Source: a bacterium (GTDB taxonomy: Bacteria; UBP18; UBA7526). From it: a stretch of DNA of 57,498 nt. The stretch is from the NCBI GenBank assembly GCA_030615855.1, contig JAUWYL010000005.1, forward strand, positions 1 through 57,498, in the 5' to 3' direction. Positions 14,601 to 31,362 of the stretch are shown piece after piece. The notes under the pieces were generated by a model. It was given only the letters and a program-made list of their open reading frames with translations. It was not told the origin of the DNA and did no database searches. Each line of letters starts with the position of its first letter. Within the stretch, counting starts at the first letter, position 1. The translations under genes were made by a program, and so were the position numbers.

Positions 14601-14832
14601 ACCCCGCACCTCCTACTGTATTTATCATATTTATCTTTTGAAAATAGAAGAAGCAAGAACTGGATTGAGTTTACGCCGTTTAGACTCTAATCTACCAACA
14701 TATGAGAATAACTAATCTATTTAGAGTCGGTATCAAAACTATTGGAAAAACTACAGAACGATATTTGAGAGTCTAACGGGGTTTACTAAGTATAATACAG
14801 AATCTTATTGAATCATAAGGGAGGTGCGGGGT
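14601..14832. repeat. 232-bp element with inverted ends overlapping a start codon
   Basis: The 13-bp sequence ACCCCGCACCTCC (14601-14613) recurs in perfect inverted orientation at 14820-14832. Between lie GTCTAACGGGGT-like segments also seen at 5567-5580 and 47888-47901. The right end supplies both GGGAGG and the GTG start of the gene at 14831. No reading frame of note lies inside. It looks like a miniature inverted-repeat element. Confidence 0.7.
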
Positions 14833-15457
14833 GAAGAAGAATAGGAGGTGGTGGGTGAGTCTGGCCATCGTAGCCGTTCTCTTAGTGGGAGTAATCGGGA
14901 TTATCACCTACAGAGAGAGGTCTAAGAGGGCAAGATGGACAGAGGAGCCAGGGGAAGCAATCTATGAGGAGATGGTTCCTCCAGAGGAGGCGATGCCTTT
15001 AGAAGAACCAGAGATCGTGGAGGCCCCACCAGTGGTTCAGGTTCCCCCTCCTCGGGAACCAGTCCAAATAAAAGTCCCGGTAGCGGAAGAGAGGTTAGTG
15101 GAGGTCAAGGTGGAGGAGACTGCACCTCCCACCAAGGCCCCTTCCTTGGTGATGGAGAAGATAGATACCGATGGGGATGGGATTCCCGACACCTTTATTA
15201 TTAAGGGGGAGCCGGGCGCTGCTCCAACTCCGGTCAAGAAGGCAGCCAAGAAGAAGAGGGCGGCTGCGGCTGGGGGGAAGATCAGTATCAACACCGCAAG
15301 TGCCAAGGAATTGGAGACCCTGCCTGGTGTTGGTCCAGCTACGGCAAAGAAGATTATCGATGGCCGTCCCTATGGAAGCATTGAAGATATTACGAATGTG
15401 AAAGGGATTGGAGAGAAGTCATTTGCCAGGATGAAGAACCTAATTACCGTTGAATAA
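14831..15457 (+). CDS. ComEA-like HhH protein with internal DxDGDG motif
   Basis: The protein has 208 residues. It has a membrane anchor at about 9-27, then an acidic proline-rich region, then KIDTDGDGIPDTF near residues 111-122, then a lysine/alanine-rich linker, and finally a ComEA-type helix-hairpin-helix domain at about 151-208 (KISINTASAKELETLPGVG, GIGEKSFARMKNLITVE). Compared with the protein at 12779, the same two modules appear in the opposite order, so they have been shuffled. DNA binding at the cytoplasmic membrane is expected. The GTG start lies in the right arm of the inverted-repeat element. Confidence 0.8.
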   Translation: MKKNRRWWVSLAIVAVLLVGVIGIITYRERSKRARWTEEPGEAIYEEMVPPEEAMPLEEPEIVEAPPVVQVPPPREPVQIKVPVAEERLVEVKVEETAPPTKAPSLVMEKIDTDGDGIPDTFIIKGEPGAAPTPVKKAAKKKRAAAAGGKISINTASAKELETLPGVGPATAKKIIDGRPYGSIEDITNVKGIGEKSFARMKNLITVE

Positions 15458-15502
15458 CACGGATCATCGCGGATTACAACACGAATAGGCACAGATTCAT
15501 CT

Positions 15503-15563
15503 GTGGCAATGCTTAACTATTTATGCTCTCTAGGATGCTAACGAAGTGCATCCTATAATCTGT
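15503..15563 (+). repeat. 61-bp direct repeat, copy 1
   Basis: The block beginning GTGGCAATGCTTAAC and containing the hairpin AGGATGC...GCATCCT is repeated at 16393-16453 with about six differences. Both copies lie between ComEA-like genes. Confidence 0.8.
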
Positions 15564-15617
15564 GATATTTTGCCCACGCAGGAGACATACTCAAAATCCG
15601 CGTTTAAGGAAGAGGAA

Positions 15618-16253
15618 ATGGAAAAGAGTAAGAGGATGAGTATTATCGTAGTGGGAATCCTCTTAGTGGCCCTTATGATCGGTGTGGCCTATGTTGCCTC
15701 AGTTGCTGGAGTACCCCCCATATCGAGCATCACTCAGGTAAGCGTTGGCCAGAGGGCAACCCTGAAGGGAAACATAACCAGTGTCCGGGTCTTCAAAAAG
15801 GGAAGGACGATAAAAATCAGCGATGGAACAGGAAGCATAGATATCCTCATCTGGAATAACCTTTTCTACCAGATACCACAGAAAGCTTCTTTAATTCAAG
15901 GAACGAGCATCCAAGTAAGTGGAGAGATCGGTTCCTACAAGGGAAGACTTCAGATAAAACCAAGAAGTCCTTTTGATATTCGGATCGCAGGTGCTGCTTC
16001 CGCTGCTCCGGCCATTGCTCCCGCTGTCGTGCCCGCTACTCCAGTGGCTGTCCCGGTGCCAGTAACTACGGGGAAGATTAATATCAATACCGCCTCCCAA
16101 TCCGAATTAGAGAGCCTGCGCGGGATCGGACCGGCCAAGGCCCAGCTCATCATCGCTGGCCGTCCCTACGCCACGGTTGATGACCTGACCGAGGTGAAGG
16201 GCATCGGACCCAAGACCCTTGAGAAGTTGAGGCCTCGGATCACTGTCGATTAA
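15618..16253 (+). CDS. membrane protein with OB-fold and ComEA-type HhH domain
   Basis: The protein has 211 residues from the ATG at 15618, preceded by AGAGGAA. The longer frame from 15546 runs through repeat DNA. A membrane anchor spans about 10-30. Residues 38-115 resemble a nucleic-acid-binding OB fold (VSVGQRATLKGNITSVRVF, ISDGTGSIDILIW, SGEIGSYKGRLQI). An alanine/proline/valine linker leads to the helix-hairpin-helix domain at about 152-211 (KININTASQSELESLRGIG, GIGPKTLEKLRPRITVD). OB folds usually bind single-stranded nucleic acid, so this protein pairs a possible single-strand binder with a duplex binder. That combination fits the conversion of incoming duplex DNA to single strands, which is inferred. 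Confidence 0.75.
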   Translation: MEKSKRMSIIVVGILLVALMIGVAYVASVAGVPPISSITQVSVGQRATLKGNITSVRVFKKGRTIKISDGTGSIDILIWNNLFYQIPQKASLIQGTSIQVSGEIGSYKGRLQIKPRSPFDIRIAGAASAAPAIAPAVVPATPVAVPVPVTTGKININTASQSELESLRGIGPAKAQLIIAGRPYATVDDLTEVKGIGPKTLEKLRPRITVD

Positions 16254-16392
16254 ACGCGAATCCACGCGAACTGGAAAGCAAAGACGAAAGACAATTAGGA
16301 CACGAATGAGCGCGAATAGTAGATACTGGATGCTGGATCCTTGATCCTTGATCCTTATCCTTGGTTACGTCTGTCTTTTAGATCTGTGATCC

Positions 16393-16453
16393 GTGGCAAT
16401 GCTTAACTATTTATACTCTCTAGGATGCCAGCGAAGCGCATCCTGTAATTTGT
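16393..16453 (+). repeat. 61-bp direct repeat, copy 2
   Basis: Second copy of the block at 15503-15563, with the same AGGATGC...GCATCCT hairpin. The rest of the 16254-16490 gap holds short repeats such as GCGAATCCACGCGAA and tandem CCTTGATCCTT units. Confidence 0.8.
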
Positions 16454-16490
16454 TTCTTATCTGTGTGAATTCGTGTTTAAAGGGAGAAGT

Positions 16491-17285
16491 ATGTTTAAAC
16501 TCTCTCATTTGGAACGAGTCGTTTTCTTCTCTCTCCTAGGAGCCTTAACTCTGGGAAGCATTCTCTATATGGTGAAGATACTCCTCACCCCCCTTCCCGA
16601 AATCCTCCCCCCTCCAGAAAGGGAGGTGAGACGGGAAGTCATTCCGCAACCAGTGGTCCTTCCTGAGCCTGAGATCCTCCCTGAGCCAGAGATCATTACC
16701 AAGCCGCCTTCCGAGCCAACCCCAGAAATGCCTCCCGCTCCAAAGGAAATTACTATTCGCATCACGGGAGCAGTGAATAAGCCCGGGGTCTATTGTTTCA
16801 TTGAGGGGGCAAAGATCGTTGATGCAGTAAAGGCTGCGGGAGGGGCAAGGGGGGACGCCCTTCTGGATGTTATGCGGCTTGCCCAACCCCTGGAGCATGG
16901 CTCGGAGATTGTCATCTCCCGAAAGTTCGATGCCCAAGCCTTCAGAAGGAAACTCCTCTCCTATGGACCGGAGCATGTCTACACCACAGAGGAGCTAATG
17001 CTGGCCTATGGTAGGCCTGAAGAAGAGATAAAGAAGAAAAAGGAAGAGAGACCCAAAGAGGAGGAAGAAAAACCCAAGCCAAGTGAAGAGGGGAAGATAA
17101 ATATCAATACCGCAGCAAAGGAAGAGCTCCAGACCCTGCCCGGTATTGGACCAAAGAAAGCAGAGGCCTTCATAAGATATAGGGAGGAACATGGCCCTTT
17201 CCAAGAGACCTCTGATATCACGAAGATCCATGGCATCGGGCAGAAGACCTACGAGAACCTGAAGGATAAGATTACCGTGGATTAG
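16491..17285 (+). CDS. comEA: ComEA with SLBB and HhH domains
   Basis: The protein has 264 residues and is the canonical ComEA layout. It has a membrane anchor at about 8-30, a proline-rich stretch with PEPEI repeats, an SLBB domain at about 86-145 (ITGAVNKPGVYCFIEGAKIVDAVKAAGG), a charged lysine/glutamate linker, and a helix-hairpin-helix domain at about 202-264 (NINTAAKEELQTLPGIGPKKAEAFIRYREEHGPF split over two helices). ComEA is the DNA receptor of natural transformation, and the SLBB part probably mediates assembly. I chose the ATG at 16491 because GGGAGAAG precedes it, rather than 16473. Confidence 0.85.
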   Translation: MFKLSHLERVVFFSLLGALTLGSILYMVKILLTPLPEILPPPEREVRREVIPQPVVLPEPEILPEPEIITKPPSEPTPEMPPAPKEITIRITGAVNKPGVYCFIEGAKIVDAVKAAGGARGDALLDVMRLAQPLEHGSEIVISRKFDAQAFRRKLLSYGPEHVYTTEELMLAYGRPEEEIKKKKEERPKEEEEKPKPSEEGKININTAAKEELQTLPGIGPKKAEAFIRYREEHGPFQETSDITKIHGIGQKTYENLKDKITVD

Positions 17286-17294
17286 GAGAGAAGA

Positions 17295-17969
17295 GTGTTT
17301 AAACTATCCCGTTCTGAGCAGTTGGTCATTCTTTTCCTTGTAGGAGTGATCCTGGTGGGAGGTGCTGTGGCCTCTGTTAAGAAGTATCTGGAAAATAAGG
17401 AGAAAGGGCATCTCCTGACCGCAGAAAGCATTACCTCGCTTGAAGAAGAAGTTGCCCCTAAGAGGATTATCATCCACATTACGGGGGCAGTGAAGAGGCC
17501 CGGGGTCTATCACTTTAAAGAGGGAGCAAGAGTCATCGATGCCGTGAAGGCAGCTGGTGGACCAGAGGAGGATGCCCTTCTCGACATCCTGAACCTCGCT
17601 CAACCCATGGAAGATGGCTCCAAGATCGTTGTCTCCCAGAAGTTCGATGCCCAGGAGTTTAAAAAGAGGCTTCTCTCCCATGGACCAGAGCATGTCTATA
17701 CCACAGAGGAGTTAAAGTTAGCCTATGGTGAGATGAAAGAAAAAGAAGAAAGGAAACTCAAAAGAAAGATAAAAGAAGAAGTAGCCCCAAAAATAAACAT
17801 AAACACTGCCACCCTCCAAGAGATTCAAACTCTGCCCAACATCGGTCCAAAGAAAGCAAAAGCCATCATCGCTAACCGCCCCTATTCAAGCATTGAAGAG
17901 ATTACCAAGATTCATGGGTTTGGCCCTAAAATTTATGGGGTATTGAGGGATAAAATTACCGTGGAATGA
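17295..17969 (+). CDS. comEA: second ComEA with SLBB and HhH domains
   Basis: The protein has 224 residues and starts with GTG only 9 bp after the previous stop. It begins MFKLSRSEQLVIL like its neighbour (MFKLSHLERVVFF) and has the same order of parts: an anchor at about 10-28, an SLBB domain at about 56-115 (ITGAVKRPGVYHFKEGARVIDAVKAAGG), the shared YGPEHVYTTEEL-type segment, and a helix-hairpin-helix at about 165-224. The proline-rich spacer of the neighbour is missing. This is clearly a tandem duplicate that has diverged. Two SLBB-ComEA proteins could form hetero-oligomers, or bind DNA of different kinds. Confidence 0.85.
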   Translation: MFKLSRSEQLVILFLVGVILVGGAVASVKKYLENKEKGHLLTAESITSLEEEVAPKRIIIHITGAVKRPGVYHFKEGARVIDAVKAAGGPEEDALLDILNLAQPMEDGSKIVVSQKFDAQEFKKRLLSHGPEHVYTTEELKLAYGEMKEKEERKLKRKIKEEVAPKININTATLQEIQTLPNIGPKKAKAIIANRPYSSIEEITKIHGFGPKIYGVLRDKITVE

Positions 17970-20530: not shown

Positions 20531-21049
20531 ATGAGTATTCTGACCAGGGGGGAGATTCTGAAGGAGATTAGGAAGGGAAGGATAAAGATCGAGCCCTTCG
20601 ATGAGTCGAAGGTGGGGCCGGGTTCTGTGGACCTTCATCTGGGGAACGAGTTCCGGGTATTCAAGAAGGTGCACAATGTCATCCATGTCTCAGAAAGGAC
20701 CTCCCATGAGCAGGTAACTGAGGTAGTAAAGGTGAAGAAGCATTTTGTCTTGATGCCAGGAGAGACAATCTTAGGGATTACAAGAGAGAAGATCACCTTG
20801 CCCAGTGACATCTGTGGTTGGCTTGAGGGAAGGAGTAGGTTCGCTCGATTCGGTCTCCTGGTCCACATCTCAGCCAGTTTCATGCATCCTGGGATCGCCA
20901 ACCACCAGGTCCTGGAGATTTCGAATTTTAGTCCTATGCCCTTGGCCATCTATCCTGGGACGCCCATCTGCCAGTTCATCTTTCAGAGAACGGTTGGGAA
21001 GGCAAAATATCACGGGAAATATAGGGCTCAGGATGAGACGAACTTTTAG
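20531..21049 (+). CDS. dcd: dCTP deaminase / dUTPase family protein
   Basis: The protein has 172 residues, the usual length of Dcd. Family motifs are GPGSVDLHLGNEF near residue 30, LMPGETILGITREKITLP near 75-92, WLEGRSRFARFGLLVH near 97-112, and the active-site strand VLEISN. The closing region has PLAIYPGTPICQFIF. Dcd converts dCTP to dUTP, while relatives are bifunctional or pure dUTPases, and I cannot separate these here. Its 3' end overlaps the AllH-family gene by 17 bp, which ties a pyrimidine-nucleotide enzyme to the carbamoyl locus downstream. AGGTAGGAG precedes the ATG. Confidence 0.8.
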   Translation: MSILTRGEILKEIRKGRIKIEPFDESKVGPGSVDLHLGNEFRVFKKVHNVIHVSERTSHEQVTEVVKVKKHFVLMPGETILGITREKITLPSDICGWLEGRSRFARFGLLVHISASFMHPGIANHQVLEISNFSPMPLAIYPGTPICQFIFQRTVGKAKYHGKYRAQDETNF

Positions 21050-21905
21050 TGCCTTCTCTTTCGATACCAAGTTACCCCCTAGATTTGGGGGAGAAGTCCA
21101 AAGCGTCTTCTCTAAAGCCTTCAATATTAGAACAGAAGAGAATGAACTTATCTCTATTGTGACAGCTGAAAAACTAAATGGTCCCAATCGCATTCTCCTT
21201 AAACTTCCCGAAGATGAAGATTTCATTTCTTTTGGGATAAAAAAGGGGGCAAAAACAGTAGGAACTGCTCAGGAGATAAGTATTGATAACGGAAATTTCC
21301 TCATCTCTTTAGAGAAAGCGAAGAAATGGTCATCTAAAATTGAGATAAAAGAGAAGACATTAAGTTCTCGAGTAAGAGACAACTTGTTTGGCTCATTTCT
21401 CCAAAAAGATTTTTCAACCGAAAAAGAAAGAAACAGCGTTTCTCAAGAATTAAGAGTTCGGATTCAAGAATTGATTAAATCCACTAAAGAAAGAGATTCT
21501 TCCAAAGTTTCAGAAAATGTCAAGAGCCTCATTGGCTTTGGAGAAGGACTTACTCCTTCAGGAGACGATTTTTTAGTAGGATTCATTGCCCCTTTACATT
21601 TTCTGGACAATTCAGAACTCTATCCTCTTTTAAAAAAGATAAAAAGAATCATTAACTTGGAGAAAGAGAAAACTACTTTCTTGAGTGGGAAGTTCTTGGA
21701 ATACGCCTGCCAAGGTAGATTCCCAGAAACAATTCTGAATCTAATAGAAACGATCTTTTCTAGAAATAGAAAAGAGGTCAAGGAAGCGGCCAAAAAGTGT
21801 TTAGACTTTGGTGCCACTTCGGGAAGAGATACTCTTCTTGGAGTTTTGGCAGGCCTTTCTTTAAGAGTAAAGGAACTAGAAAATGATTCTAAAGAATATC
21901 GTTAA
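21033..21905 (+). CDS. allH: DUF2877 protein, oxamate carbamoyltransferase subunit AllH family
   Basis: The protein has 290 residues from the ATG at 21033, which overlaps the end of dcd. The longer frame reads through dcd in another frame and is not credible. The C-terminal half has the family signature IGFGEGLTPSGDDFLVGF and FGATSGRDTLLGVLAGL. E. coli AllH (YlbF) belongs to this family, and allFGH together encode oxamic transcarbamylase. That enzyme splits oxalurate to oxamate and carbamoyl phosphate. The other two subunit families follow in this locus. Its stop overlaps the fdrA start by 23 bp. The substrate here may differ from oxalurate. Confidence 0.75.
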   Translation: MRRTFSAFSFDTKLPPRFGGEVQSVFSKAFNIRTEENELISIVTAEKLNGPNRILLKLPEDEDFISFGIKKGAKTVGTAQEISIDNGNFLISLEKAKKWSSKIEIKEKTLSSRVRDNLFGSFLQKDFSTEKERNSVSQELRVRIQELIKSTKERDSSKVSENVKSLIGFGEGLTPSGDDFLVGFIAPLHFLDNSELYPLLKKIKRIINLEKEKTTFLSGKFLEYACQGRFPETILNLIETIFSRNRKEVKEAAKKCLDFGATSGRDTLLGVLAGLSLRVKELENDSKEYR

Positions 21906-23421
21906 GAAAGATACCTATCAGGATTCTGTCTTCTTGATGTCCATTGCCAGTAGGGTAAAGTCTTTAGAAGGTATAGAGGAAGTATCCTGCCTAATGGGAA
22001 CTCCAGAGAATAAAAAACTATTGGCCGAGGTAAATCTTTTAACTAAGGAGGGAGAAGAAGCAAAGTCCAATGACCTCTTGATTGCTATTTCTGCCCGGGA
22101 CAAGATGGCTATTGAAAAGACATTGGAGGAGATCAAAAAATTATTGGCGGAGAAAAGGGTTAGAAAAGAAGAAGGTGAGGCAATTTTACCTAAGAGCCTG
22201 GATTCTGCCCTTGACCAATTGCCAGATGCCAATCTTATTCATATCTCTATTCCCGGAAGGTATGTGAGATGGGAAGCAGAAAAAGCCTTAGAAAGGGGCT
22301 TAAACCTCTTCATCTTCAGTGACAATGTTTCCGTAGGGGATGAGTTAGAGTTAAAGAGAATGGCTAAGAGGAAAGGCCAGTTAGTCATGGGTCCAGACTG
22401 TGGAACAGCGATAATCAATGGTGTGGCCTTAGGATTTGCTAATGTAGTCAGAAGAGGGAATATTGGAATTGTTGCTGCTGCGGGAACAGGACTGCAGGAA
22501 GTCTCTTGTCTAATCCATCAGGCTGGCTTGGGAATCTCTCAGGGTATTGGAACTGGGGGAAGGGACCTATTAAAGGGGATCGGTGGAATTACCATGCTTC
22601 AGGGAATAAAGGCCTTGGAGAATGACCCAGATACCAGGATAATCCTCTTGATCTCCAAGCCTCCAGCAAAGGAAGTAGCAGATAGAATAATAAAAGAGGT
22701 AAAGAAGGCTAAGAAGCCCTTTGTCATAAATTTCTTAGGAAGCAAACCAGGCGAAGAGACTAAAAGAATACACTTTGCTTCTACCTTAGAGGAGACAGCC
22801 CATAAAGCGATAGCCCTGAGCAAGAAAGAAAAGTATAAATCTAAAGTATTCAGCGAGAGAAAAGAAAGAATAATCTCTTTAGCAAAAAGAGAACCCTCAA
22901 AACTTAAAAATAGACAGAAGTATATTCGAGGATTATTCTCTGGGGGAACACTATGTGATGAGGCCATGCTCATCTTAAAAGATTTAGTGGGTGATATCTA
23001 TTCCAATATCCCCCTAAAACCCTCTCTGAAGTTAAAGAACAGTAATTTGAGCCAAAAGAACTCTTTAGTTGACTTAGGAGATGATGAGTTTACCAGAGGA
23101 AGGCCCCATCCCATGATTGACTTCACCTTAAGGAATGAAAGGATTATCCAGGAGGTAAAGAATCCAGAAACAGCGGTAATCCTTTTGGACATCGTCTTGG
23201 GTTATGGCGCCCATCCTGATCCAGCGAATGCCTTGGCTCCAGCAATAAAGGAGGCAAAGGAAAGGAATGTCTTAGTAGTGGCCTCCTTATGTGGCACAGA
23301 GGGCGATCCCCAGGACTATAAGAGACAGAAGGAAGAATTAGAGAAGATGGGAGTAATCATTATGCCTTCCAATGCTCAGGCAGCGAGGTTCACTGCCCTG
23401 GCAGCCACAAAACGCAGATGA
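21883..23421 (+). CDS. fdrA: FdrA-family protein (oxamate carbamoyltransferase AllF)
   Basis: The protein has 512 residues, close to the usual FdrA length. It resembles the ADP-forming acyl-CoA synthetase fold, with an N-terminal CoA-binding-like half containing MGPDCGTAIINGVALGFAN and GNIGIVAAAGTGLQEVSCLIHQAG. The C-terminal ligase-like half has LDIVLGYGAHPDPA and VASLCGTEGDPQ. E. coli FdrA was renamed AllF as a subunit of oxamic transcarbamylase. The gene begins inside allH, so the two are translationally coupled. Together with DUF1116 and DUF2877 it should form a carbamoyl-phosphate-generating complex in the cytoplasm. No carbamate kinase is visible in the window. Confidence 0.85.
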   Translation: MILKNIVKKDTYQDSVFLMSIASRVKSLEGIEEVSCLMGTPENKKLLAEVNLLTKEGEEAKSNDLLIAISARDKMAIEKTLEEIKKLLAEKRVRKEEGEAILPKSLDSALDQLPDANLIHISIPGRYVRWEAEKALERGLNLFIFSDNVSVGDELELKRMAKRKGQLVMGPDCGTAIINGVALGFANVVRRGNIGIVAAAGTGLQEVSCLIHQAGLGISQGIGTGGRDLLKGIGGITMLQGIKALENDPDTRIILLISKPPAKEVADRIIKEVKKAKKPFVINFLGSKPGEETKRIHFASTLEETAHKAIALSKKEKYKSKVFSERKERIISLAKREPSKLKNRQKYIRGLFSGGTLCDEAMLILKDLVGDIYSNIPLKPSLKLKNSNLSQKNSLVDLGDDEFTRGRPHPMIDFTLRNERIIQEVKNPETAVILLDIVLGYGAHPDPANALAPAIKEAKERNVLVVASLCGTEGDPQDYKRQKEELEKMGVIIMPSNAQAARFTALAATKRR

Positions 23422-23474
23422 CTACAGATAAAGGAGTAAGGAATAAGGAATAAGGAGTAAGGAGTAAGTAGGAA
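23422..23474. repeat. AAGGAGTAAGGAATAAGG tandem units left of the four-helix-bundle gene
   Basis: Short direct units (AAGGAGTAAGGAATAAGG and variants) fill the gap before 23478. The opposite side of that gene (23844-23902) is filled with TTACTACTTGTTACTTACT units, so the gene lies between imperfect inverted repeats. Confidence 0.55.
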
Positions 23475-23477
23475 GTG

Positions 23478-23843
23478 ATGGAAAAGAAGGTAAGAAAGGT
23501 CGAAGATCTCTTAGTTTACCAGAGAGCGATGAAACTCTTTGATGAATTCATGGAAGAAGACCTTCCTCTTTTGAGTAAACATTTTGCGGGAAGGGAATTG
23601 GCCAGACAGCAGGTAAGAAGCCTTGATTCCATCTGTGCCAATATGGAGGAAGGCTTTGGGAGAAAAGCAGGCAAGGAACATAAAAATTTCTTCCGGATAT
23701 CAAGAGGTTCTACAGGCGAGAGTAAGGGAAGATATAGAAGATGCAAAAAATTCTTATCCCAGAAAACAATAGAGAAAAGAGTAGGACAATTGAGTGAAAT
23801 CCAAGCTATGCTCAATTCCCTACTAAGCAAACTAAGGGATTAG
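23478..23843 (+). CDS. four-helix-bundle (S23-type) protein
   Basis: The protein has 121 residues. It begins with VRKVEDLLVYQRAMKLFDEF, the typical first helix of four-helix-bundle proteins related to 23S rRNA intervening-sequence proteins. ARQQVRSLDSICANMEEGFGR and a GSTGESKGRYRR turn follow, and it ends in a helix with the EIQAMLNSLLSKL pattern. The usual SLxExxTxL third-helix motif is altered. The family has no established function, and relatives include the Avd accessory protein of diversity-generating retroelements. ATG 23478 follows GGAAGTG, and a GTG at 23475 is possible. It splits two carbamoyltransferase-locus genes that normally lie together, so it looks like an insertion. Confidence 0.8.
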   Translation: MEKKVRKVEDLLVYQRAMKLFDEFMEEDLPLLSKHFAGRELARQQVRSLDSICANMEEGFGRKAGKEHKNFFRISRGSTGESKGRYRRCKKFLSQKTIEKRVGQLSEIQAMLNSLLSKLRD

Positions 23844-23902
23844 CCCTTTCACTTACTACTTGTTACTTACTACTTACTACTTTTTTTAAAAGGTAGGGAG
23901 AT
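23844..23902. repeat. CTTACTACTTGTTACTTACT units right of the four-helix-bundle gene
   Basis: This gap repeats ACTTACTACT units, the approximate complement of the AGTAAGTAGG units on the left side of the gene, and then has a T-run and AGGTAGGGAG as the ribosome binding site for the next gene. Confidence 0.55.
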
Positions 23903-24985
23903 ATGGACTATTTAATTAAGAAGGCCAAGAAGAAGGATTTTTCTCTCTACAAGATAGGCCCGGATGGGAAGGGGGTAAAGAGGTATATTATCTCTACTCT
24001 CCAGACACGCAAGATATGCAACATTCCGGAGATCATGGGCTTTGAGTATATAAGCACTCTCCAGGAAGGAATGAAGAAGATCTTAAAGAACCTTCCTTTT
24101 CATCGTTTCGATGATAAAAGTGTCTCTGTCTTACATTTCCTAAGAGGAGGACTTAACTTCGGCCTCCCCTTTCTTCTCCACAAGGTCTATGGCTTCAATA
24201 GGCACTTCTCTTCCTTTATCACCTCCCAGAGATATAAGAAAAGAGGGAAGTGGTCAATAAAGTTAGACCAGTATCGCAAGTTTTCCATTCCGGAAGATGC
24301 TAACATCTTCTTAGGGGATGTCATTGCTACCGGAACCACCATAGAGAATGGATTGGGAATACTTTATAGAAGATGTTTGGAAGAAAAGAAGAATATCAAG
24401 AACTTCATCGTCTTTACCATTGGTTGTTATAAGGCGGAGAAGATCTTGGAAAAGTTCGATAGGCTCTTCAGGAAATCATTCGACTATCAGAATACCTATC
24501 TCTATTACTTAGAAGGAAGGTTTGGCCTGCCAGAGAAGAGGAAGGATTTTAGAATCTGCCTTCCGGGAACAGACCTCATCAGATATCCCGCCCTCCTCTC
24601 CCCGGAGTTCGAACTATTCCAGTATGAGAAAATATCTTATCCCTTGGAGAGATGCACCATCTACGATGTGGGCTCCCGCTCCTTTGAATGCCTTACTCAC
24701 TTAGAAGATGTTATCGACTATTGGAAGAAACTATCTCTTACCGGAATGACCCTCTATGAGGCTTATAAAGAGAGGTGGCCAGAGAGGGAATATAGTTCGT
24801 TTGAGAGTTTGAGAGAAGCAAAGAGAAGAACCTGGAAGAATATGGATCCAAAGTTAATTAAAAATCTCTATGAAACATACCGAAGGAGATGGACTCCAAA
24901 GAGAATAAGAGAGGCCAAGAAGAAAGATTCTCTCAAAAAATTCTGTACTCAAAGAATAAAAGAAATAAAGAAATTAATGAAGTGA
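23903..24985 (+). CDS. phosphoribosyltransferase-like protein, unusual family
   Basis: The protein has 360 residues. Two segments look like a type I phosphoribosyltransferase. VSVLHFLRGGLNFGLPFLL resembles the ILRGG...LP loop of uracil phosphoribosyltransferase, and IFLGDVIATGTTIENG at about 134-149 resembles the PRPP-binding loop. In the latter the usual DD pair reads GD, so PRPP binding may be changed. Residues 200-270 contain an LPGTDLIRYPALLSPE segment I do not recognise, and the last 100 residues are basic and helical with repeated (Y/K)(E/R)RW(P/T) motifs. It lies between FdrA and the DUF1116 subunit. Its role is unknown; a nucleobase- or nucleotide-handling enzyme or sensor would fit the locus. 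Confidence 0.6.
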   Translation: MDYLIKKAKKKDFSLYKIGPDGKGVKRYIISTLQTRKICNIPEIMGFEYISTLQEGMKKILKNLPFHRFDDKSVSVLHFLRGGLNFGLPFLLHKVYGFNRHFSSFITSQRYKKRGKWSIKLDQYRKFSIPEDANIFLGDVIATGTTIENGLGILYRRCLEEKKNIKNFIVFTIGCYKAEKILEKFDRLFRKSFDYQNTYLYYLEGRFGLPEKRKDFRICLPGTDLIRYPALLSPEFELFQYEKISYPLERCTIYDVGSRSFECLTHLEDVIDYWKKLSLTGMTLYEAYKERWPEREYSSFESLREAKRRTWKNMDPKLIKNLYETYRRRWTPKRIREAKKKDSLKKFCTQRIKEIKKLMK

Positions 24986-24989
24986 AAAA

Positions 24990-26387
24990 ATGACTGGGTT
25001 ATTCGGCAAGAAATTAAAGGTCATCGATCTGGGGCTGGAGTCCTTTCACGATTCCTTACAGGAACAGGGAGTGGAGGTTTTGCATGTCGATTGGAAACCT
25101 CTTTCTTCCAGAGCAAGAATATTGTCTAAACTCGATAATCGAGCGATTGATAAAGTAAATGAAGAAGCGGTTAAGAGGATGATTGATTCTCAGCCGATAC
25201 TGGTAGACATTAAACAGGCCAAGGATGTTATTCCGGGAATGAGCAAGAGGACCATTCTTCATGCTGGGCCTCCCGTAGAATGGAAGAAGATGTGTGGACC
25301 AATAAAGGGAGCAGTAATGGGTGCTCTGATCTATGAAGGATTGGCAGAGAACCCGAAAGAGGCAAAGAAATTAGTAGCCAGTGAAAAGATTAAATTTTCC
25401 CCCTGTCACCATCATAATGCGGTAGGACCTATGGCCGGCGTTATCTCGGCCTCTATGTATGTCTTCGTGGTCAAGAATCAAAGATTCGGTAATTATGCTT
25501 ACTGCACCTTAAATGAGGGATTAGGGAAGGTATTGAGGTTCGGTGCCTATAGTGAGGAAGTAATCGAGAGGCTTAAGTGGATGGAGAAGGTCCTCGCTCC
25601 GGGCTTGAAGAAAGCGGTAAAAATATCCGGGGGAATGAATATCAAGAACCTTACTGCTCAGGCACTGCAGATGGGGGATGAGTGCCATAACAGGAATGTT
25701 GCTGCCACCTCATTATTTTTAAAGGAGATTACCCCTCATCTCCTAAAGACCGATTTGAATAAAAAGACAATAGGAGAAATAATTGAATTTGTTTCGGGAA
25801 ATGTCCATTTCTTTCTGAATATCTCCATGGCGGCCTGCAAGGCAACTGCAGATACTATCTTAGGATTTAAGAATAGTTCCCTGGTGAGCGTCATGGCCAG
25901 AAATGGAACAGATATCGGAATAAGGGTGGCAGAATTAGGGGAGAGATGGTTTACTGCAAAAGCCGGGATGCCTAAGGGACTATACTTTGCCGGCTATAGC
26001 GCCAAGGATGCCAATCCCGACTTAGGGGATTCCACAATATCAGAGGTCGCCGGCATTGGGGGATTTGCTATGGCCTCTGCTCCAGCTATCGTCCAGTTCA
26101 TAGGAGGAAGTCCTCAGGATGCCATAAAATACACCAAAGAGATGTATGAAATTACTGTCGCAAAACATAGTATTTATAAAATTCCCACCCTTGATTTTAT
26201 AGGGACACCAATCGGTATCGATATCAGAAAGGTGGTTGAGACCGGGATTACCCCATTCATCAATACCGGGATTGCCCACAAAAAACCGGGCATCGGCCAG
26301 ATAGGAGCCGGCATCCTGCGCGCCCCCATGAGCATCTTCGAAGAAGCTCTTACTACCTTCGCATCTTCGAAGATTGGAAGACCGTAA
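24990..26387 (+). CDS. allG: DUF1116 protein, oxamate carbamoyltransferase subunit AllG family
   Basis: The protein has 465 residues and starts 5 bp after the previous stop. It matches DUF1116 (E. coli YlbE/AllG): VLHVDWKPL near residue 35, HAGPPVEWKKMCGPIKGAVMGAL near 90-112, FSPCHHHNAVGPMAGVIS near 130-147, QMGDECHNRN near 230, and SVMARNGTDIGIRVAELG near 300. The CHHHNAVGPM and GDECHNRN stretches are rich in potentially catalytic or metal-binding residues. With AllF and AllH it makes the complete set for an oxamate-type transcarbamylase, which transfers a carbamoyl group to phosphate. Confidence 0.85.
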   Translation: MTGLFGKKLKVIDLGLESFHDSLQEQGVEVLHVDWKPLSSRARILSKLDNRAIDKVNEEAVKRMIDSQPILVDIKQAKDVIPGMSKRTILHAGPPVEWKKMCGPIKGAVMGALIYEGLAENPKEAKKLVASEKIKFSPCHHHNAVGPMAGVISASMYVFVVKNQRFGNYAYCTLNEGLGKVLRFGAYSEEVIERLKWMEKVLAPGLKKAVKISGGMNIKNLTAQALQMGDECHNRNVAATSLFLKEITPHLLKTDLNKKTIGEIIEFVSGNVHFFLNISMAACKATADTILGFKNSSLVSVMARNGTDIGIRVAELGERWFTAKAGMPKGLYFAGYSAKDANPDLGDSTISEVAGIGGFAMASAPAIVQFIGGSPQDAIKYTKEMYEITVAKHSIYKIPTLDFIGTPIGIDIRKVVETGITPFINTGIAHKKPGIGQIGAGILRAPMSIFEEALTTFASSKIGRP

Positions 26388-26426
26388 TAAGCTCAAATTT
26401 TCCTTTCTTTTCCGTTGAATCTATAG

Positions 26427-26432
26427 TATAAT
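26427..26432 (+). promoter_or_regulatory. TATAAT -10 box before the aldehyde oxidoreductase gene
   Basis: A perfect TATAAT lies in the 89-bp gap before the ferredoxin oxidoreductase gene. The -35 region is only TTTCTT-like. A start of a separate transcript here is plausible but not certain. Confidence 0.4.
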
Positions 26433-26476
26433 GTTGATGTTAAATGAGAAATGAGGCTTGCTTGTAGGAGATAGAG

Positions 26477-28372
26477 ATGGGGAAGTATAAAGGTTATCAT
26501 GGAAAGTATATCAGGGTTGATTTGACGAAGGAAGAAGTTAAGGTTCTGGACCTGCCAGATGATCTCATTGAGAACTATCTGGGAGGGAATGGCTTTGGGA
26601 TAAAGATCCTCTGGGATGAGGTTCCTCCAGAGGTCGATGCCTTAGACCCAGAGAATAGGCTCGTCTTTGCTACCGGCGCCTTGAATGGGACCCTCTGGCC
26701 CTGTTCTGGTCATTTAGAGGTAATTAGCAAATCGCCCTTGACGGGAATCTATGGTGATGCCAATGCTGGTGGCTTCTTTGCCCCAGAACTACGCTTTGCG
26801 GGCTACGATATGATCGTCTTTCAGGGAAAGGCAGAGAGGCCGGTCTATCTATGGATTAAAGACGATGAGATTGAACTAAGGGATGCCAAACATCTCTGGG
26901 GAAAAGATACCCTTACCACCCAGAGGATGATCAGAGAAGAGTTGAAAGATGAGAAGATTAAGGTGGCCTCTATCGGCCCGGCAGGGGAGAATCTGGTCAA
27001 ATTTGCCTGCATCGTAGTCACTGAGAATCGTACCCTTGCTCGGGCAGGAATAGGAGCCGTAATGGGAAGTAAAAACTTGAAAGCAATTGCGGTGCGTGGA
27101 ACAAAACAAGTTTCCCTAAATAATCCAGAGGAGCTTAAGAAGGCCGCCACTTTGGCAAGGAAGGCCATAAGGGAGAATGAGTTCACCGCAGGAGAGCATA
27201 AGTATGGAACAGCAGGTTTAGTAAATATTGTCAATGAGGTGGGAAGATTCCCCACCCGGAATTTACAAGCCGGACACTTTGAAGAGGCGGATAAGATTAG
27301 TGGTGAAGCCTTGGACGAGAAGCACTTTGTGAGACACCAGGCCTGCTATCGCTGTCCCATTGCTTGTGATAAGGTGATGGAGGTGAGGGAAGGAGAGTAT
27401 AAGGGGACGGTGACCTCTTCCTTAGAGTATGAGACACTATGTTCCCTGGGAGCAAAGTGTGGCAATAGCAATTTAGCCTCCGTTATTAAGGCCAATGTCA
27501 TCTGCGATAGCATGGGAATGGACACCATCTCTGCCGGAGGGGCCATCTCCTGGGCCATGGAGTGTTACGAGAAGAGAATACTAACTAAGGAAGATACGGA
27601 TGGCCTGGACCTTTCCTGGGGAAATTATCATTCCATAATTACCCTATTGGAGAAAATTGCCAAAAGAGAGGGATTTGGTGGTCTATTAGCAGAAGGTTGT
27701 AAGAGAGCAGCAGAGAAGACTGGCAAGGGTTCGGAATATTATGCCATGCATATCAAAGGGATGGAGATCCCCGCCCAGGATGGAAGGAGCCAGCAGTCCA
27801 TGGGATTAGCCCATGCAACCTCTAATAGGGGAGCAGACCACTTGAAGGGATTCCCTACCATTGATGAGACCGGCTATGCCGGAGCAGCCATAAAAAGGTA
27901 CGGAGAGGATAAGATGCCGGAGATAATAGATGGCATCCAGACCAAGTATAAGCCCCTTGTGGTGAAGGATGGGGAGGAGTTCTGCGCCGTCATTGACTCA
28001 TCGGGGATCTGTAAGTTCGGAACATTATTTCCTCCCGCCATCTACTGGGATCTTCTGACTCCCGGAATAAAGTATGCTACTGGACTGGATGTTGATGTTC
28101 CCAGACTGAAAAAGATTGGGGAGAGGATATACAATCTTCAGAGATGTTATAATATCCTTTTGGGAATCTCGAAGAAGGACGATACCCAGCCAGAGAGACT
28201 CTTAAAAGAGCCCTCTCCTTCTAAGAGAGCCAAAGGCCATGTGGTCTACTTAGATAAGATGCTGCCTGAGTATTATAAACTTAGGGAATGGGATGAGGAG
28301 ACCGGCTATCCCACGAGGAAGAAGTTAGAAGAACTAGGCTTAGGCTTCGCTGCTGATAAACTGAATTTATGA
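26477..28372 (+). CDS. aldehyde:ferredoxin oxidoreductase family protein
   Basis: The protein has 631 residues, the length of tungsten-pterin AOR enzymes. Family features include YLGGNGFGIKILW near residue 36, the pterin-binding SPLTGIYGDANAGGFFAPELRFAGYD near 90-115, NRTLARAGIGAVMGSKNLKAIAV near 180-205, and the iron-sulfur ligands Cys290, Cys293, Cys297 (CYRCPIAC) and Cys512 (SGICKFG). Known members oxidise aldehydes with ferredoxin, or reduce carboxylic acids. In this locus it may act on a carbonyl or heterocyclic intermediate of nucleobase breakdown, which is inferred from position only. TAGGAGATAGAG precedes the ATG. It should be cytoplasmic and oxygen-sensitive. Confidence 0.9.
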   Translation: MGKYKGYHGKYIRVDLTKEEVKVLDLPDDLIENYLGGNGFGIKILWDEVPPEVDALDPENRLVFATGALNGTLWPCSGHLEVISKSPLTGIYGDANAGGFFAPELRFAGYDMIVFQGKAERPVYLWIKDDEIELRDAKHLWGKDTLTTQRMIREELKDEKIKVASIGPAGENLVKFACIVVTENRTLARAGIGAVMGSKNLKAIAVRGTKQVSLNNPEELKKAATLARKAIRENEFTAGEHKYGTAGLVNIVNEVGRFPTRNLQAGHFEEADKISGEALDEKHFVRHQACYRCPIACDKVMEVREGEYKGTVTSSLEYETLCSLGAKCGNSNLASVIKANVICDSMGMDTISAGGAISWAMECYEKRILTKEDTDGLDLSWGNYHSIITLLEKIAKREGFGGLLAEGCKRAAEKTGKGSEYYAMHIKGMEIPAQDGRSQQSMGLAHATSNRGADHLKGFPTIDETGYAGAAIKRYGEDKMPEIIDGIQTKYKPLVVKDGEEFCAVIDSSGICKFGTLFPPAIYWDLLTPGIKYATGLDVDVPRLKKIGERIYNLQRCYNILLGISKKDDTQPERLLKEPSPSKRAKGHVVYLDKMLPEYYKLREWDEETGYPTRKKLEELGLGFAADKLNL

Positions 28373-28505
28373 GGGTTACTACGCTTCGCTGTTACTACCA
28401 GTTACTACGCCCCGCTGAAGACGGGACTGTTACTAACAGTTGCCTTTGTAACTTCTCGTAACCGATAGTAACCGATTAGTAACCTTTAGTAACCGATACC
28501 TACTT
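28373..28505. repeat. GTTACTA-type palindromic spacer
   Basis: The gap is made of GTTACTA/TAGTAAC units on both strands around a small hairpin (CCCCGCTGAAGACGGG). Closely related spacers occupy 35249-35391 and 53695-53836. It runs into AAAGGAGG at 28506, the ribosome binding site of the next gene. Confidence 0.7.
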
Positions 28506-28521
28506 AAAGGAGGAAAAAGAA

Positions 28522-29769
28522 ATGATGGACCTCATTATTAGGAATGCTAAGACAAGAGAAAAGGATGGCAGAGTAGATATTGCCATCAAGGGAGCGAAGA
28601 TTAGGAGAATAGCCAAGAAGTTAAATGGAAAAGCGAAGAATGAAATTGACGCTAAGGGAGGTTTAACTACTCCTACATTCGTCGATCCCCATCTACATTT
28701 AGATAAAGCTCTGATTAGCGAAGTAGTGAGAGAGAATGTTACGGGAACCCTAACCGAGGCCATTGAGATTATCTGGAATAAGAAGAAAAGATATACCATA
28801 AAGGATATTGTTTCTCGGGCAGGAAAGGCCATTGAGTGGGGAGTAAAGAATGGGACGACCATCTTCAGGACCCATGTGGATGTCGATAATATCGGAAAAT
28901 TGATGCCTTTGAAAGGATTATTAGAGGTGAGAAAAGAGTATCAGGATGTCTGTGACATTCAGATTGTGGTCTTTCCCCAGGAAGGAATAATAAAAAATAA
29001 GGGAACAGAAAAACTAATGCGTCAAGCGATGGAATTAGGAGCAGATGTAGTAGGGGGAATGCCCTATAATGAATATACTTATGATGACTCTAAGAAGCAC
29101 ATCGATATTGCCTTTCAGATCGCCAAAGAGTTTGATGTTGACATCGATATGCACGTGGATGAGACGGATGATCCGGATGCCCGAACCTTAGAGTACTTAG
29201 CAGCCAAGACAATAAAGGAGGGTTGGCAGGGAAGGGTCACTGCTGGTCATACCTGCGCCTTAGCGGCTTATGATGATCTTTATGCCTCCAAGGTAATCGG
29301 GATGATAAAAGAGGCAGAAGTAAATATGATTACCAACCCGGCAACGAACTTGATGTTACAGGGGAGATTCGATAAACAACCCATCCGGCGTGGAATTACC
29401 AGGGTAAAAGAACTCTTAGAGGCTGGGGTGAACGTCTGCTATGGCCAGGACTGTCTAAAGGATACTTTCTATCCCACCTGGGGAAGGGAGGATATGTTAG
29501 AAGTAGGTTTAATTACTGCCCATGCGGCACAGTTTACTATGCCAAAAGAGATTGAGATTCTATTCGATATGCCCACCATAAATGCTGCCCAGGTATTGAG
29601 ACTTAAGAACTATGGGATAAAGGTGGGAAATCCGGCCAGTCTAAACATTATAGATGCCCGCAATGTCCAGGAGGCCTTCCGCACCCAGGCAGATAGGCTC
29701 TATGTCATAAGGAAAGGAAAAGTCATCGCCCGAACCAAGACCATCTCAGAGCTCTTTAGGAAGAGATAG
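28522..29769 (+). CDS. cytosine-deaminase-like amidohydrolase
   Basis: The protein has 415 residues (414 if ATG 28525 is used) with AGGAGGAAAAAGAA in front. It is an amidohydrolase of the cytosine deaminase branch: FVDPHLHLDKAL near residue 51 gives the first two metal histidines, FRTHVDVDN near 115, DIDMHVDETDDPD near 212, TAGHTCAL near 240, and the branch-specific GQDCLKDTFYPTW near 311. CodA deaminates cytosine, while relatives act on isoguanine, ammelide derivatives or creatinine. Deamination of a pyrimidine or related ring fits the neighbours (uridine phosphorylase, dCTP deaminase family). The exact substrate cannot be read from sequence. Confidence 0.8.
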   Translation: MMDLIIRNAKTREKDGRVDIAIKGAKIRRIAKKLNGKAKNEIDAKGGLTTPTFVDPHLHLDKALISEVVRENVTGTLTEAIEIIWNKKKRYTIKDIVSRAGKAIEWGVKNGTTIFRTHVDVDNIGKLMPLKGLLEVRKEYQDVCDIQIVVFPQEGIIKNKGTEKLMRQAMELGADVVGGMPYNEYTYDDSKKHIDIAFQIAKEFDVDIDMHVDETDDPDARTLEYLAAKTIKEGWQGRVTAGHTCALAAYDDLYASKVIGMIKEAEVNMITNPATNLMLQGRFDKQPIRRGITRVKELLEAGVNVCYGQDCLKDTFYPTWGREDMLEVGLITAHAAQFTMPKEIEILFDMPTINAAQVLRLKNYGIKVGNPASLNIIDARNVQEAFRTQADRLYVIRKGKVIARTKTISELFRKR

Positions 29770-29784
29770 AAGGAGGTAAAATAA

Positions 29785-30552
29785 ATGAAGTTAATTGATC
29801 TTACTCAGCCTTTGAGTGTTTTGACACCTGCCTGGCCAACCTATGAACCATTGCAGGTGAAGTTCTTCAAAAGGTTGGCTCCCAACGGGGCCAATGGACA
29901 ATTGATCACTACTTCCAACCATGTGGGGACCCACTTAGATGGGGCATTACACTTCTGCACCCATGGAAGGGATATCGCCTCCATTCCCTTAGAGGACTTA
30001 TATGGCGAGGCAGCGGTAGTCGACCTCTCGGATATGGCAGAGGATTATGGTATCTATACCTCTAAAGATATTACTGACCGGATAGAGGTGAAGAAGAAAG
30101 ATATTTTAATCATCAATACTGGATACCATAGGTATGCCTGGGATCAGCCAGAGGCGGATGAGGTGAGATATATGTGCAAGCATCCCGGTCCTACTATAGA
30201 GTTCGCTGAATGGTGCAAGAAGATGGAGATTAAATGGATCGGGGTTGACTGCGGCTCAGCGGACCATCCCATGAATACCAAGATAAGGGACTGGATGCCT
30301 CGTTTAGCCAGGGAGTGTAACGAATACTTTAAGAAGAAATATAAGAAGAGCATTGAAGAGATCTTCCCTCCCGACCATTATCAATTGATGCACATTCAAT
30401 TATTTCCCCACGACATCATCCATGCTGAGAACTTAGGGGGAGAGATAGATAAGATATTGAATAAGAGGACCATCGTGGGCTGCTTCCCCTGGAGGTTTAT
30501 GGGAGGAGAATCGGCATTCTGTAGGATAGTAGCCTTCGAAAAAGAAGGTTAA
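29785..30552 (+). CDS. cyclase-family (kynurenine formamidase-like) metal hydrolase
   Basis: The protein has 255 residues with AGAAGGAGG before the ATG. It starts with LIDLTQPLS, and HVGTHLDGALHF near residue 52 is the family's HxGTHxDxxxH metal-binding motif. GVDCGSADHP near 155 and a late PHDIIHAENLGG, then PWRFMGGESAFCR, complete the fold. Relatives hydrolyse formylkynurenine, isatin or other amides and lactams. The longer insertion around residues 170-200 is typical of one subgroup. It probably opens a ring or amide in the pathway, possibly after the cytosine-deaminase-like enzyme. That order is inference. Confidence 0.8.
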   Translation: MKLIDLTQPLSVLTPAWPTYEPLQVKFFKRLAPNGANGQLITTSNHVGTHLDGALHFCTHGRDIASIPLEDLYGEAAVVDLSDMAEDYGIYTSKDITDRIEVKKKDILIINTGYHRYAWDQPEADEVRYMCKHPGPTIEFAEWCKKMEIKWIGVDCGSADHPMNTKIRDWMPRLARECNEYFKKKYKKSIEEIFPPDHYQLMHIQLFPHDIIHAENLGGEIDKILNKRTIVGCFPWRFMGGESAFCRIVAFEKEG

Positions 30553-30613
30553 TATCGGTTAAAAACGGTTATTAACCACTATTAACTGATATTAACTGTT
30601 ATTAACTTTAGAA
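30553..30613. repeat. GTTATTAAC-type spacer
   Basis: The gap repeats GGTTATTAAC, TATTAACTG and ATTAAC units on both strands, an AT-rich variant of the GTTACTA spacers. It ends just before CAGGAGG of the next gene. Confidence 0.55.
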
Positions 30614-30624
30614 CAGGAGGAATC

Positions 30625-31362
30625 ATGGAGAAAGAGTATCACATTGGTTTGAAGAAGGGGGATGTGGGAAGGTATGTCCTACTACCTGGTGACCCGGCAA
30701 GGACAGAGATCATTGCCAAGCACTTTGAGAATGCCCAGGAGGTGGGATTTACCAGGGAGTATCGGACATTTACTGGGATGGTAGAAGGGATTAAGATCTC
30801 CACTACCTCTACTGGTATCGGTTGCCCATCAACTGCTATAGCCATTGAGGAATTAGCGAAGATTGGAGCGGATACCTTCATCAGGGTGGGAACCGCTGGC
30901 TCCTTGCAGAAAGAGGTGGAGTTAGGCGATGTTGTTATCTCTACCGGGGCAGTAAGAGAGGAGGGGACAACCAGACAGTATGTCCCTCTAAGTTATCCGG
31001 CGGTTGCCGATTTAGAGGTAACCAATGCCTTAGTGGAAGCAGCCAAGAAGTTAGGCCTTCCTCATCATACAGGTATCGTCCACTGCAAGGATGCCTTCTA
31101 TACTGAAGGGGCAAAAGATCTGCCCCTGGCGGAACATAATGAAGAGATGTGGAAGGCCTGGTATCGCTCAAATGTCCTGGCCACCTCCATGGAATCCAGT
31201 GCCTTATTCGTGGTCTCTTCAATAAAGAAGTTAAGGGCGGGAGAGGTAATGGCCATCATTGGACTTACCTATGCCGATCAGCCCATTGAGAAGAAGGTAG
31301 GGATTACCGAAGCAATAAAGATCGCCATTGAAGCAATAAAAATACTGGAAAAGGGCAGGTGA
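30625..31362 (+). CDS. udp: uridine phosphorylase
   Basis: The protein has 245 residues, typical of PNP/UDP family members. YVLLPGDPARTEIIAKHF near residue 17 carries the phosphate-binding loop, STGIGCPSTAIAIEEL near 61, RVGTAGSLQ near 86 (the second phosphate-binding arginine), and MESSALFVVSS near 188 is the ribose-binding motif. Uridine phosphorylase converts uridine and phosphate to uracil and ribose 1-phosphate. GTTRQYVPLSYPA near 112 is typical of uridine rather than purine phosphorylases. It should feed free pyrimidine bases to the catabolic enzymes encoded upstream. GGAGGAATC precedes the ATG. Confidence 0.85.
   Translation: MEKEYHIGLKKGDVGRYVLLPGDPARTEIIAKHFENAQEVGFTREYRTFTGMVEGIKISTTSTGIGCPSTAIAIEELAKIGADTFIRVGTAGSLQKEVELGDVVISTGAVREEGTTRQYVPLSYPAVADLEVTNALVEAAKKLGLPHHTGIVHCKDAFYTEGAKDLPLAEHNEEMWKAWYRSNVLATSMESSALFVVSSIKKLRAGEVMAIIGLTYADQPIEKKVGITEAIKIAIEAIKILEKGR

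Follow-up and report, generated by a model that had tools for sequence, protein, structure and literature searches.

The closest systems known for the ten-gene set considered here, which lies on the + strand at positions 20531-31362 of a 57,498-nucleotide window (the whole stretch of DNA analysed, from a bacterium of the lineage UBP18; contig JAUWYL010000005.1), are found in Escherichia coli and Rhodococcus. The E. coli transcarbamylase AllFGH, accompanied by the carbamate kinase AllK, has been proven to interconvert oxalurate and oxamate plus carbamoyl phosphate (PMC11326118), and the window shares with it three homologous subunits and, as we propose, the formation of carbamoyl phosphate through phosphorolysis of an N-carbamoyl amide. 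Unlike E. coli, the window has no carbamate kinase in its operon, the kinase lying on another contig, and it carries a putative ring oxidase and ring opener where E. coli uses the linear AllC/AllD steps. The oxidative pyrimidine pathway of Rhodococcus (uracil dehydrogenase, barbiturase and ureidomalonase) would share the intermediates barbiturate and ureidomalonate with the route proposed here, whereas the window has a Cyclase-family hydrolase for the AtzD-family barbiturase, a tungsten-type aldehyde:ferredoxin oxidoreductase (AOR) for the molybdenum (Mo) enzyme and, putatively, phosphorolysis with energy capture for the plain hydrolysis by ureidomalonase.

Further likenesses are partial. The uncharacterised yahEFGHIJ genes of E. 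coli K-12 (our locus L129, 6926-13508) encode an AllH-FdrA-AllG set, with AllG 47% identical to that of the window, together with a carbamate-kinase-like YahI and an amidohydrolase, YahJ, but YahJ shares no more than 28% identity with the window's deaminase and no Cyclase or Mo hydroxylase is annotated there. The reductive uric acid pathway with YgeW is likewise an anaerobic nucleobase route in which a ureido group is released phosphorolytically as carbamoyl phosphate for ATP (PMC12507026); however, it is reductive, uses other ring-opening enzymes and relies on an ordinary carbamoyltransferase unrelated to AllFGH. Cyclase-family (PF04199) enzymes of the KynB and isatin hydrolase type share fold family and metal-ligand pattern with the window's Cyclase, but the similarity is remote and the context different. 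No description of the route was found in the open-access literature; an earlier account elsewhere is possible, and the core of the module appears to be undescribed so far.

We propose, with a probability of about 0.58, that the locus encodes oxidative pyrimidine catabolism in an anaerobic form that conserves energy and leads from uracil through carbamoyl phosphate to ATP. We infer all of its reactions and their order from the observed gene content, synteny, co-occurrence, permease type and Mo hydroxylase absence. Uridine phosphorylase (uridine to uracil) and a CodA-like deaminase (cytosine to uracil) would supply uracil, which a single hydroxylation at C6 would convert to barbiturate; most bearers of the module would use a Mo hydroxylase for this, and the window's family most likely the operon's tungsten AOR. 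The Cyclase-family metal hydrolase would open barbiturate to ureidomalonate (N-carbamoyl-malonamate), and the FdrA-AllG-AllH complex would split this with phosphate into malonamate and carbamoyl phosphate, in the manner of AllFGH on oxalurate. In the last step, carbamate kinase would use carbamoyl phosphate and ADP to form ATP, with ammonia and CO2 as the other products. Ureidomalonate exceeds oxalurate, which is N-carbamoyl-oxamate, by one CH2. A first-pass annotation, made from the sequence alone, had suggested breakdown of pyrimidines or related rings to carbamoyl phosphate and ATP. Pyrimidine catabolism with an AllFGH-type transcarbamylase at its end is supported; for ring opening the Cyclase is the better candidate, and the deaminase and uridine phosphorylase would feed in uracil.

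Transcarbamylase genes and their conservation

Gene families in the window were assigned by Pfam and NCBIfam profile searches, and the genome from which it derives (G000) was examined one family at a time. All three AllFGH-type subunit families are present and linked: an AllH-family subunit (21033..21905; PF11392, 3.4e-28), an FdrA/AllF-family subunit with CoA-ligase fold (21883..23421; NF004760, 513 bits against a cut-off of 433) and an AllG-family subunit (24990..26387; PF06545, 1.2e-97). Over its length, the window FdrA shares 38% identity with E. coli AllF, and AllG is 46% identical to its E. coli namesake. In a tree of AllG proteins, the window's AllG clusters with those from Elusimicrobial and Eremiobacterial loci; the phosphoribosyltransferase (PRTase)-like gene described below is present in some of these loci too. 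E. coli AllG forms a lone long branch apart from Cyclase-linked AllG and its placement is therefore unsure, while E. coli YahG falls among carbamate-kinase-linked loci of Bacillota, which makes yahEFGHIJ a second, uncharacterised relative. As the first-pass annotation had noted, allantoin genes (AllB, AllC, AllD, AllE) are absent between ComEC and PolA, the part of the window to which this search was confined. An allantoin/oxalurate pathway as such was rejected on this ground and on the separate branch of E. coli AllG.

Gene order is the same in two genomes of the same genus (G001 and G002) and is kept in partial stretches in three others (G003-G005), with protein identities of 68-99% across the window's family, so the gene set as first noticed stands. 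All genes named in the first-pass annotation were recovered on the + strand at about the positions it gave, and their linkage in relatives is borne out both by this synteny and by AllG loci elsewhere.

A widespread module across phyla

Scanning a single genome for each species gave 80 named AllG loci, which rose to 107 with loci from other genomes and covered many bacterial phyla and a few archaea; some of the loci behind these counts came from a search that ordered its hits by their similarity to AllG of the window. Of the 107 loci, 80 carried a gene related to the window's Cyclase near AllG, 57 the Mo subunit of a three-subunit xanthine-dehydrogenase (XDH)-type enzyme and 31 an NCS2 permease. 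The Cyclase typically lies directly 3' of AllG, with a gap of -60 to 150 bases in 53 of 79 same-strand pairs. Clostridium magnum DSM 2767 (L039) holds, in one run, AllH, FdrA, AllG, Cyclase, GNAT, thiolase, DUF35, the FAD, FeS and Mo subunits of XDH, a uracil permease and carbamate kinase. The core of the operon is thus a widespread module in anaerobes, usually with a Mo hydroxylase and often with a uracil permease.

The association was also examined at genome level in 242 diverse genomes, most of them the single representative chosen for a family and almost all with a completeness of 90% or more; the Fisher values given here treat genomes as independent, ignoring relatedness. The Cyclase was present in 25 genomes and AllG in 29, with AllG in all 25 Cyclase-bearing genomes against 4 of the 217 others (Fisher 3.4e-30). 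The Mo-hydroxylase large subunit PF20256 was found in 93 of the 242 genomes, including all 24 Cyclase-bearing genomes besides the window's own, compared with 69 of 217 (32%) lacking the Cyclase (Fisher 1.5e-11). The window's genome was the sole Cyclase-bearing exception.

Two downstream gene sets accompany the module: a GNAT-like/thiolase/DUF35 set in 29 of the 107 loci and a CoA-transferase/amidase/nitrilase set in 35, which are mutually exclusive (together in 0 of 107; Fisher 1.2e-6). The latter suits a dicarboxylic-acid amide as product, which would first be hydrolysed to the acid and then activated with CoA. The window holds neither. A 231-residue member of the GNAT-like family, which has no Pfam match, folds as a GNAT, and the tail of GNAT-fold protein, thiolase and BbsA-like DUF35 was seen at L039 12288-14520 and in 28 further loci. 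AllG loci also occur in archaeal metagenome-assembled genomes (L103 and L048; Pyrodictiaceae and Undinarchaeales), L103 having the full module including Mo hydroxylase, Cyclase and carbamate kinase. In genome G094 (contig C86, 224206-225828), tandem Cyclase-family matches of a divergent type (43-49% identity) lie off the AllG contig.

An AOR as proposed substitute for the Mo hydroxylase

PF20256/MoCoBD_2 was not found in G000 or in five further genomes of the family (0/6). Loss through genome incompleteness was considered and is unlikely, given absence from 6/6 genomes and a naive incompleteness product of 3.5e-5. The operon instead includes an AOR gene (26477..28372; AFOR_N, 5.6e-84; AFOR_C, 3.7e-137), whose orthologues in G001, G002, G003 and G005 are 92-94% identical. 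Outside the family, none of the 242 genomes encodes a relative of this AOR that exceeds 50% identity, and within its own genome the nearest paralogues reach 48-49%. Because the Mo hydroxylase is absent in 6/6 genomes and the AOR is kept in the operon, this enzyme is the leading candidate for ring oxidation, and its substitution for the Mo hydroxylase would be the simplest reading. The closest structure is 1AOR, and the protein keeps Fe-S cysteines Cys290/293/297/512 as well as Glu319 and His455, equivalents of Glu313 and His448, whose roles we take to be those in Pyrococcus furiosus AOR. That a tungsten AOR-family enzyme hydroxylates uracil to barbiturate, with electrons passing to ferredoxin, within an undescribed, widespread and energy-conserving ureidomalonate-transcarbamylase pathway is a tentative suggestion that we regard as doubtful, and this step is less certain than the others proposed. 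The first-pass annotation knew of no route in exactly this form: the core proves common to many phyla, but the composition with AOR for Mo hydroxylase is peculiar to the window's family.

The rival that survives best concerns this step alone and is compatible with the remainder of the proposed pathway. The AOR could lie outside it as a co-transcribed detoxifier, with another genomic enzyme oxidising uracil or with barbiturate or ureides arriving from neighbouring organisms. In its favour are the five AOR-family genes in the 1.4 Mb genome (contigs C2, C6, C8 and C10), which has no xanthine-dehydrogenase-type large subunit, and the lack of an NCS2-type uracil permease. Yet the AOR is fixed in the family operon at 92-94% identity, and no Cyclase-bearing genomes other than those of this family were found to lack a Mo hydroxylase. 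We consider this alternative possible, though not probable.

Evidence for uracil as substrate

Twenty-two permeases from module clusters were scored against models of uracil, pyrimidine and xanthine permeases. The uracil and pyrimidine models outscored the xanthine model for 19, and four passed the uracil-permease cut-off of 477 bits (642.7, 619.5, 639.0 and 703.1 bits in L039, L059, L067 and L086, respectively). Within the operon, a cytosine-deaminase-like amidohydrolase (AMH) of the CodA subfamily (28522..29769; 421.4 bits in NCBIfam, just under the cut-off of 438) and a uridine phosphorylase (30625..31362; TIGR01718, 292.9 bits, cut-off 280.3) flank the Cyclase gene, and the order AMH-Cyclase-uridine phosphorylase recurs in Elusimicrobium (L036) at 58-73% identity. 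Relatives of the AMH (E<1e-90) were found in five of the 242 genomes, all of which also bear the Cyclase; the AMH gene neighbours the Cyclase gene in G088 and the Mo hydroxylase in G084. In another module-bearing genome (G055), a CodA relative adjoins a cytosine permease scoring over its cut-off. The AMH aligns with E. coli CodA over its full length and keeps the metal ligands and the equivalents of Gln156, Glu217 and Asp313, residues to which we assign their presumed CodA roles, while the residue after the catalytic Asp (the Asp313 equivalent) is Cys, where CodA has Asp. On account of this Cys and of a score just below the cut-off, cytosine is its likely, not its certain, substrate.

These data bear on a second alternative, in which the module degrades another ureide-forming ring, such as hydantoin by way of parabanate and then oxalurate, or else a product of purines, with a transcarbamylase of the usual kind acting on oxalurate. 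Oxalurate is indeed the substrate of E. coli AllFGH (PMC11326118), XdhC, MocA, YqeB and PucR-type genes lie near some clusters, and three of the 22 permeases are xanthine-like. Most permeases are nonetheless pyrimidine-type, four of them over the uracil cut-off, the operon itself encodes a uridine phosphorylase along with a relative of cytosine deaminase, and E. coli AllG lies on a lone long branch away from Cyclase-linked AllG. Furthermore, converting the CH2 of hydantoin to C=O takes two oxidations, where uracil to barbiturate takes one. We judge degradation of another ring to be unlikely.

Proposed ring opening by the Cyclase-family hydrolase

The Cyclase-family, KynB-like metal hydrolase (29785..30552; PF04199, 1e-34) is only remotely similar to solved KynB structures (best PDB match 8.5e-11). 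Its HxxxHxDxxxH motif and a later His and Glu are invariant in the alignment (H46, H50, D52, H56, H203 and E215), presumably with the metal-ligand roles of their KynB counterparts. The protein is 72-77% identical to Cyclases of genomes that carry a Mo hydroxylase, in several of which the two stand in the same cluster, and we propose it as the better ring-opening candidate. No gene for an AtzD-family barbiturase was detected at the locus by Pfam and NCBIfam scans of the window's proteins, the rest of the genome not being searched for AtzD.

A hydrolytic variant was also considered for the window's family, in which the Cyclase opens an unoxidised pyrimidine to ureidoacrylate, from which the transcarbamylase would form carbamoyl phosphate and 3-aminoacrylate; hydrolysis of the latter would give malonate semialdehyde and finally, through the AOR and ferredoxin, malonate. 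This variant would leave the AOR with ordinary aldehyde chemistry, as its fully kept catalytic residues and Fe-S cysteines allow, and would account for a family without a Mo hydroxylase to form barbiturate. However, the 72-77% identity to Cyclases of Mo-hydroxylase genomes makes a different Cyclase substrate unlikely, and we know of no uracil hydrolysis by such an enzyme; we hold the variant to be rather improbable. An accidental grouping of salvage and redox genes that have no connection with one another, which the bystander-like dCTP deaminase and IVP protein might suggest, is rejected as highly improbable by locus- and genome-level co-occurrence across phyla in the 242 genomes.

A sink for carbamoyl phosphate

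The first-pass annotation had asked for a carbamate kinase in the genome, and one is present on contig C39 of G000 (L018, 1-5010), in a row with a YgeY-type hydrolase and two carbamoyltransferases of uncertain type, neither of which exceeds an NCBIfam cut-off. G002, G003 and G004 carry the kinase at 89-97% identity; in G001 (75% complete) and G005 (53% complete) none was found. Absence of a carbamoyl-phosphate sink was therefore rejected. In the Elusimicrobia-like genomes G210 and G084, kinase and Cyclase gene share one contig, 11 to 17 kb apart. The two carbamoyltransferases and kinase of C39 recur in G210 about 10 kb from the Cyclase gene.

Points that weigh against the proposed pathway

Several observations speak against the pathway from uracil through barbiturate to carbamoyl phosphate. 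The AOR retains the residues of ordinary aldehyde oxidation, and we know of no AOR that hydroxylates a pyrimidine; to our knowledge, no activity has been established for the window's Cyclase clade either. The known barbiturase belongs to the AtzD family, unrelated to the Cyclase (PMC4051656). The locus has no malonamate amidase, the carbamate kinase is unlinked to the operon (separate contig), and the PRTase-like protein is left unexplained. As to uptake, three of the 22 module permeases are closer to xanthine permeases, and a family search of the window's genome returned no NCS2 uracil permease.

Remaining genes of the locus

The ten genes are flanked by ComEC and PolA. The dCTP deaminase (DCD) gene overlaps AllH by 17 bases and AllH overlaps FdrA by 23, while the remaining gaps within the set are 4-149 bases; scans for promoters and terminators returned nothing above chance level. 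DCD (20531..21049, +; TIGR02274, 147.5 bits, cut-off 92.8) was seen linked to AllH only within the window's family, and the pathway role initially suggested for it is unproved; it could be a housekeeping enzyme that is merely co-transcribed. A 23S-rRNA-IVP-type four-helix-bundle protein (23475..23843, +; PF05635, 1.6e-15), encoded between the FdrA and PRTase-like genes and missing from the first-pass annotation, has no counterpart at the equivalent place in L019 or L021 and is probably outside the pathway.

The PRTase-like protein (23903..24985, +) fits that label in part: its PRTase-CE match is weak and sub-threshold, but it has a DVIATGTT motif resembling a PRPP loop. A structure model was poor (pLDDT 42) and was not used. 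Both the window's family and Elusimicrobia keep its gene in the interval from FdrA to AllG, with homologues of 43-45% identity at the same position in L037 and L131; its role in the pathway would be putative. In G001, the PRTase-like gene is separated from AllG by an additional open reading frame (ORF) of 337 residues (L019, 8238-9251). Elsewhere in the window, four consecutive ORFs with ComEA-like helix-hairpin-helix tails lie upstream of ComEC (14831-17969; the first alone Pfam-checked).

Implications

If correct, the proposed pathway would provide genes and an energy yield for anaerobic oxidative uracil catabolism, in which a nucleobase pays for ATP via carbamoyl phosphate. It would also give a role to many bacterial and archaeal FdrA, AllG and AllH genes, among which the E. 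coli allantoin enzyme would look like an outlier, and would assign a function to one Cyclase-family clade. The reading can be tested in cultured bearers, Clostridium magnum among them. Should the AOR step hold as well, tungsten AOR chemistry would extend beyond aldehydes to an aromatic ring.

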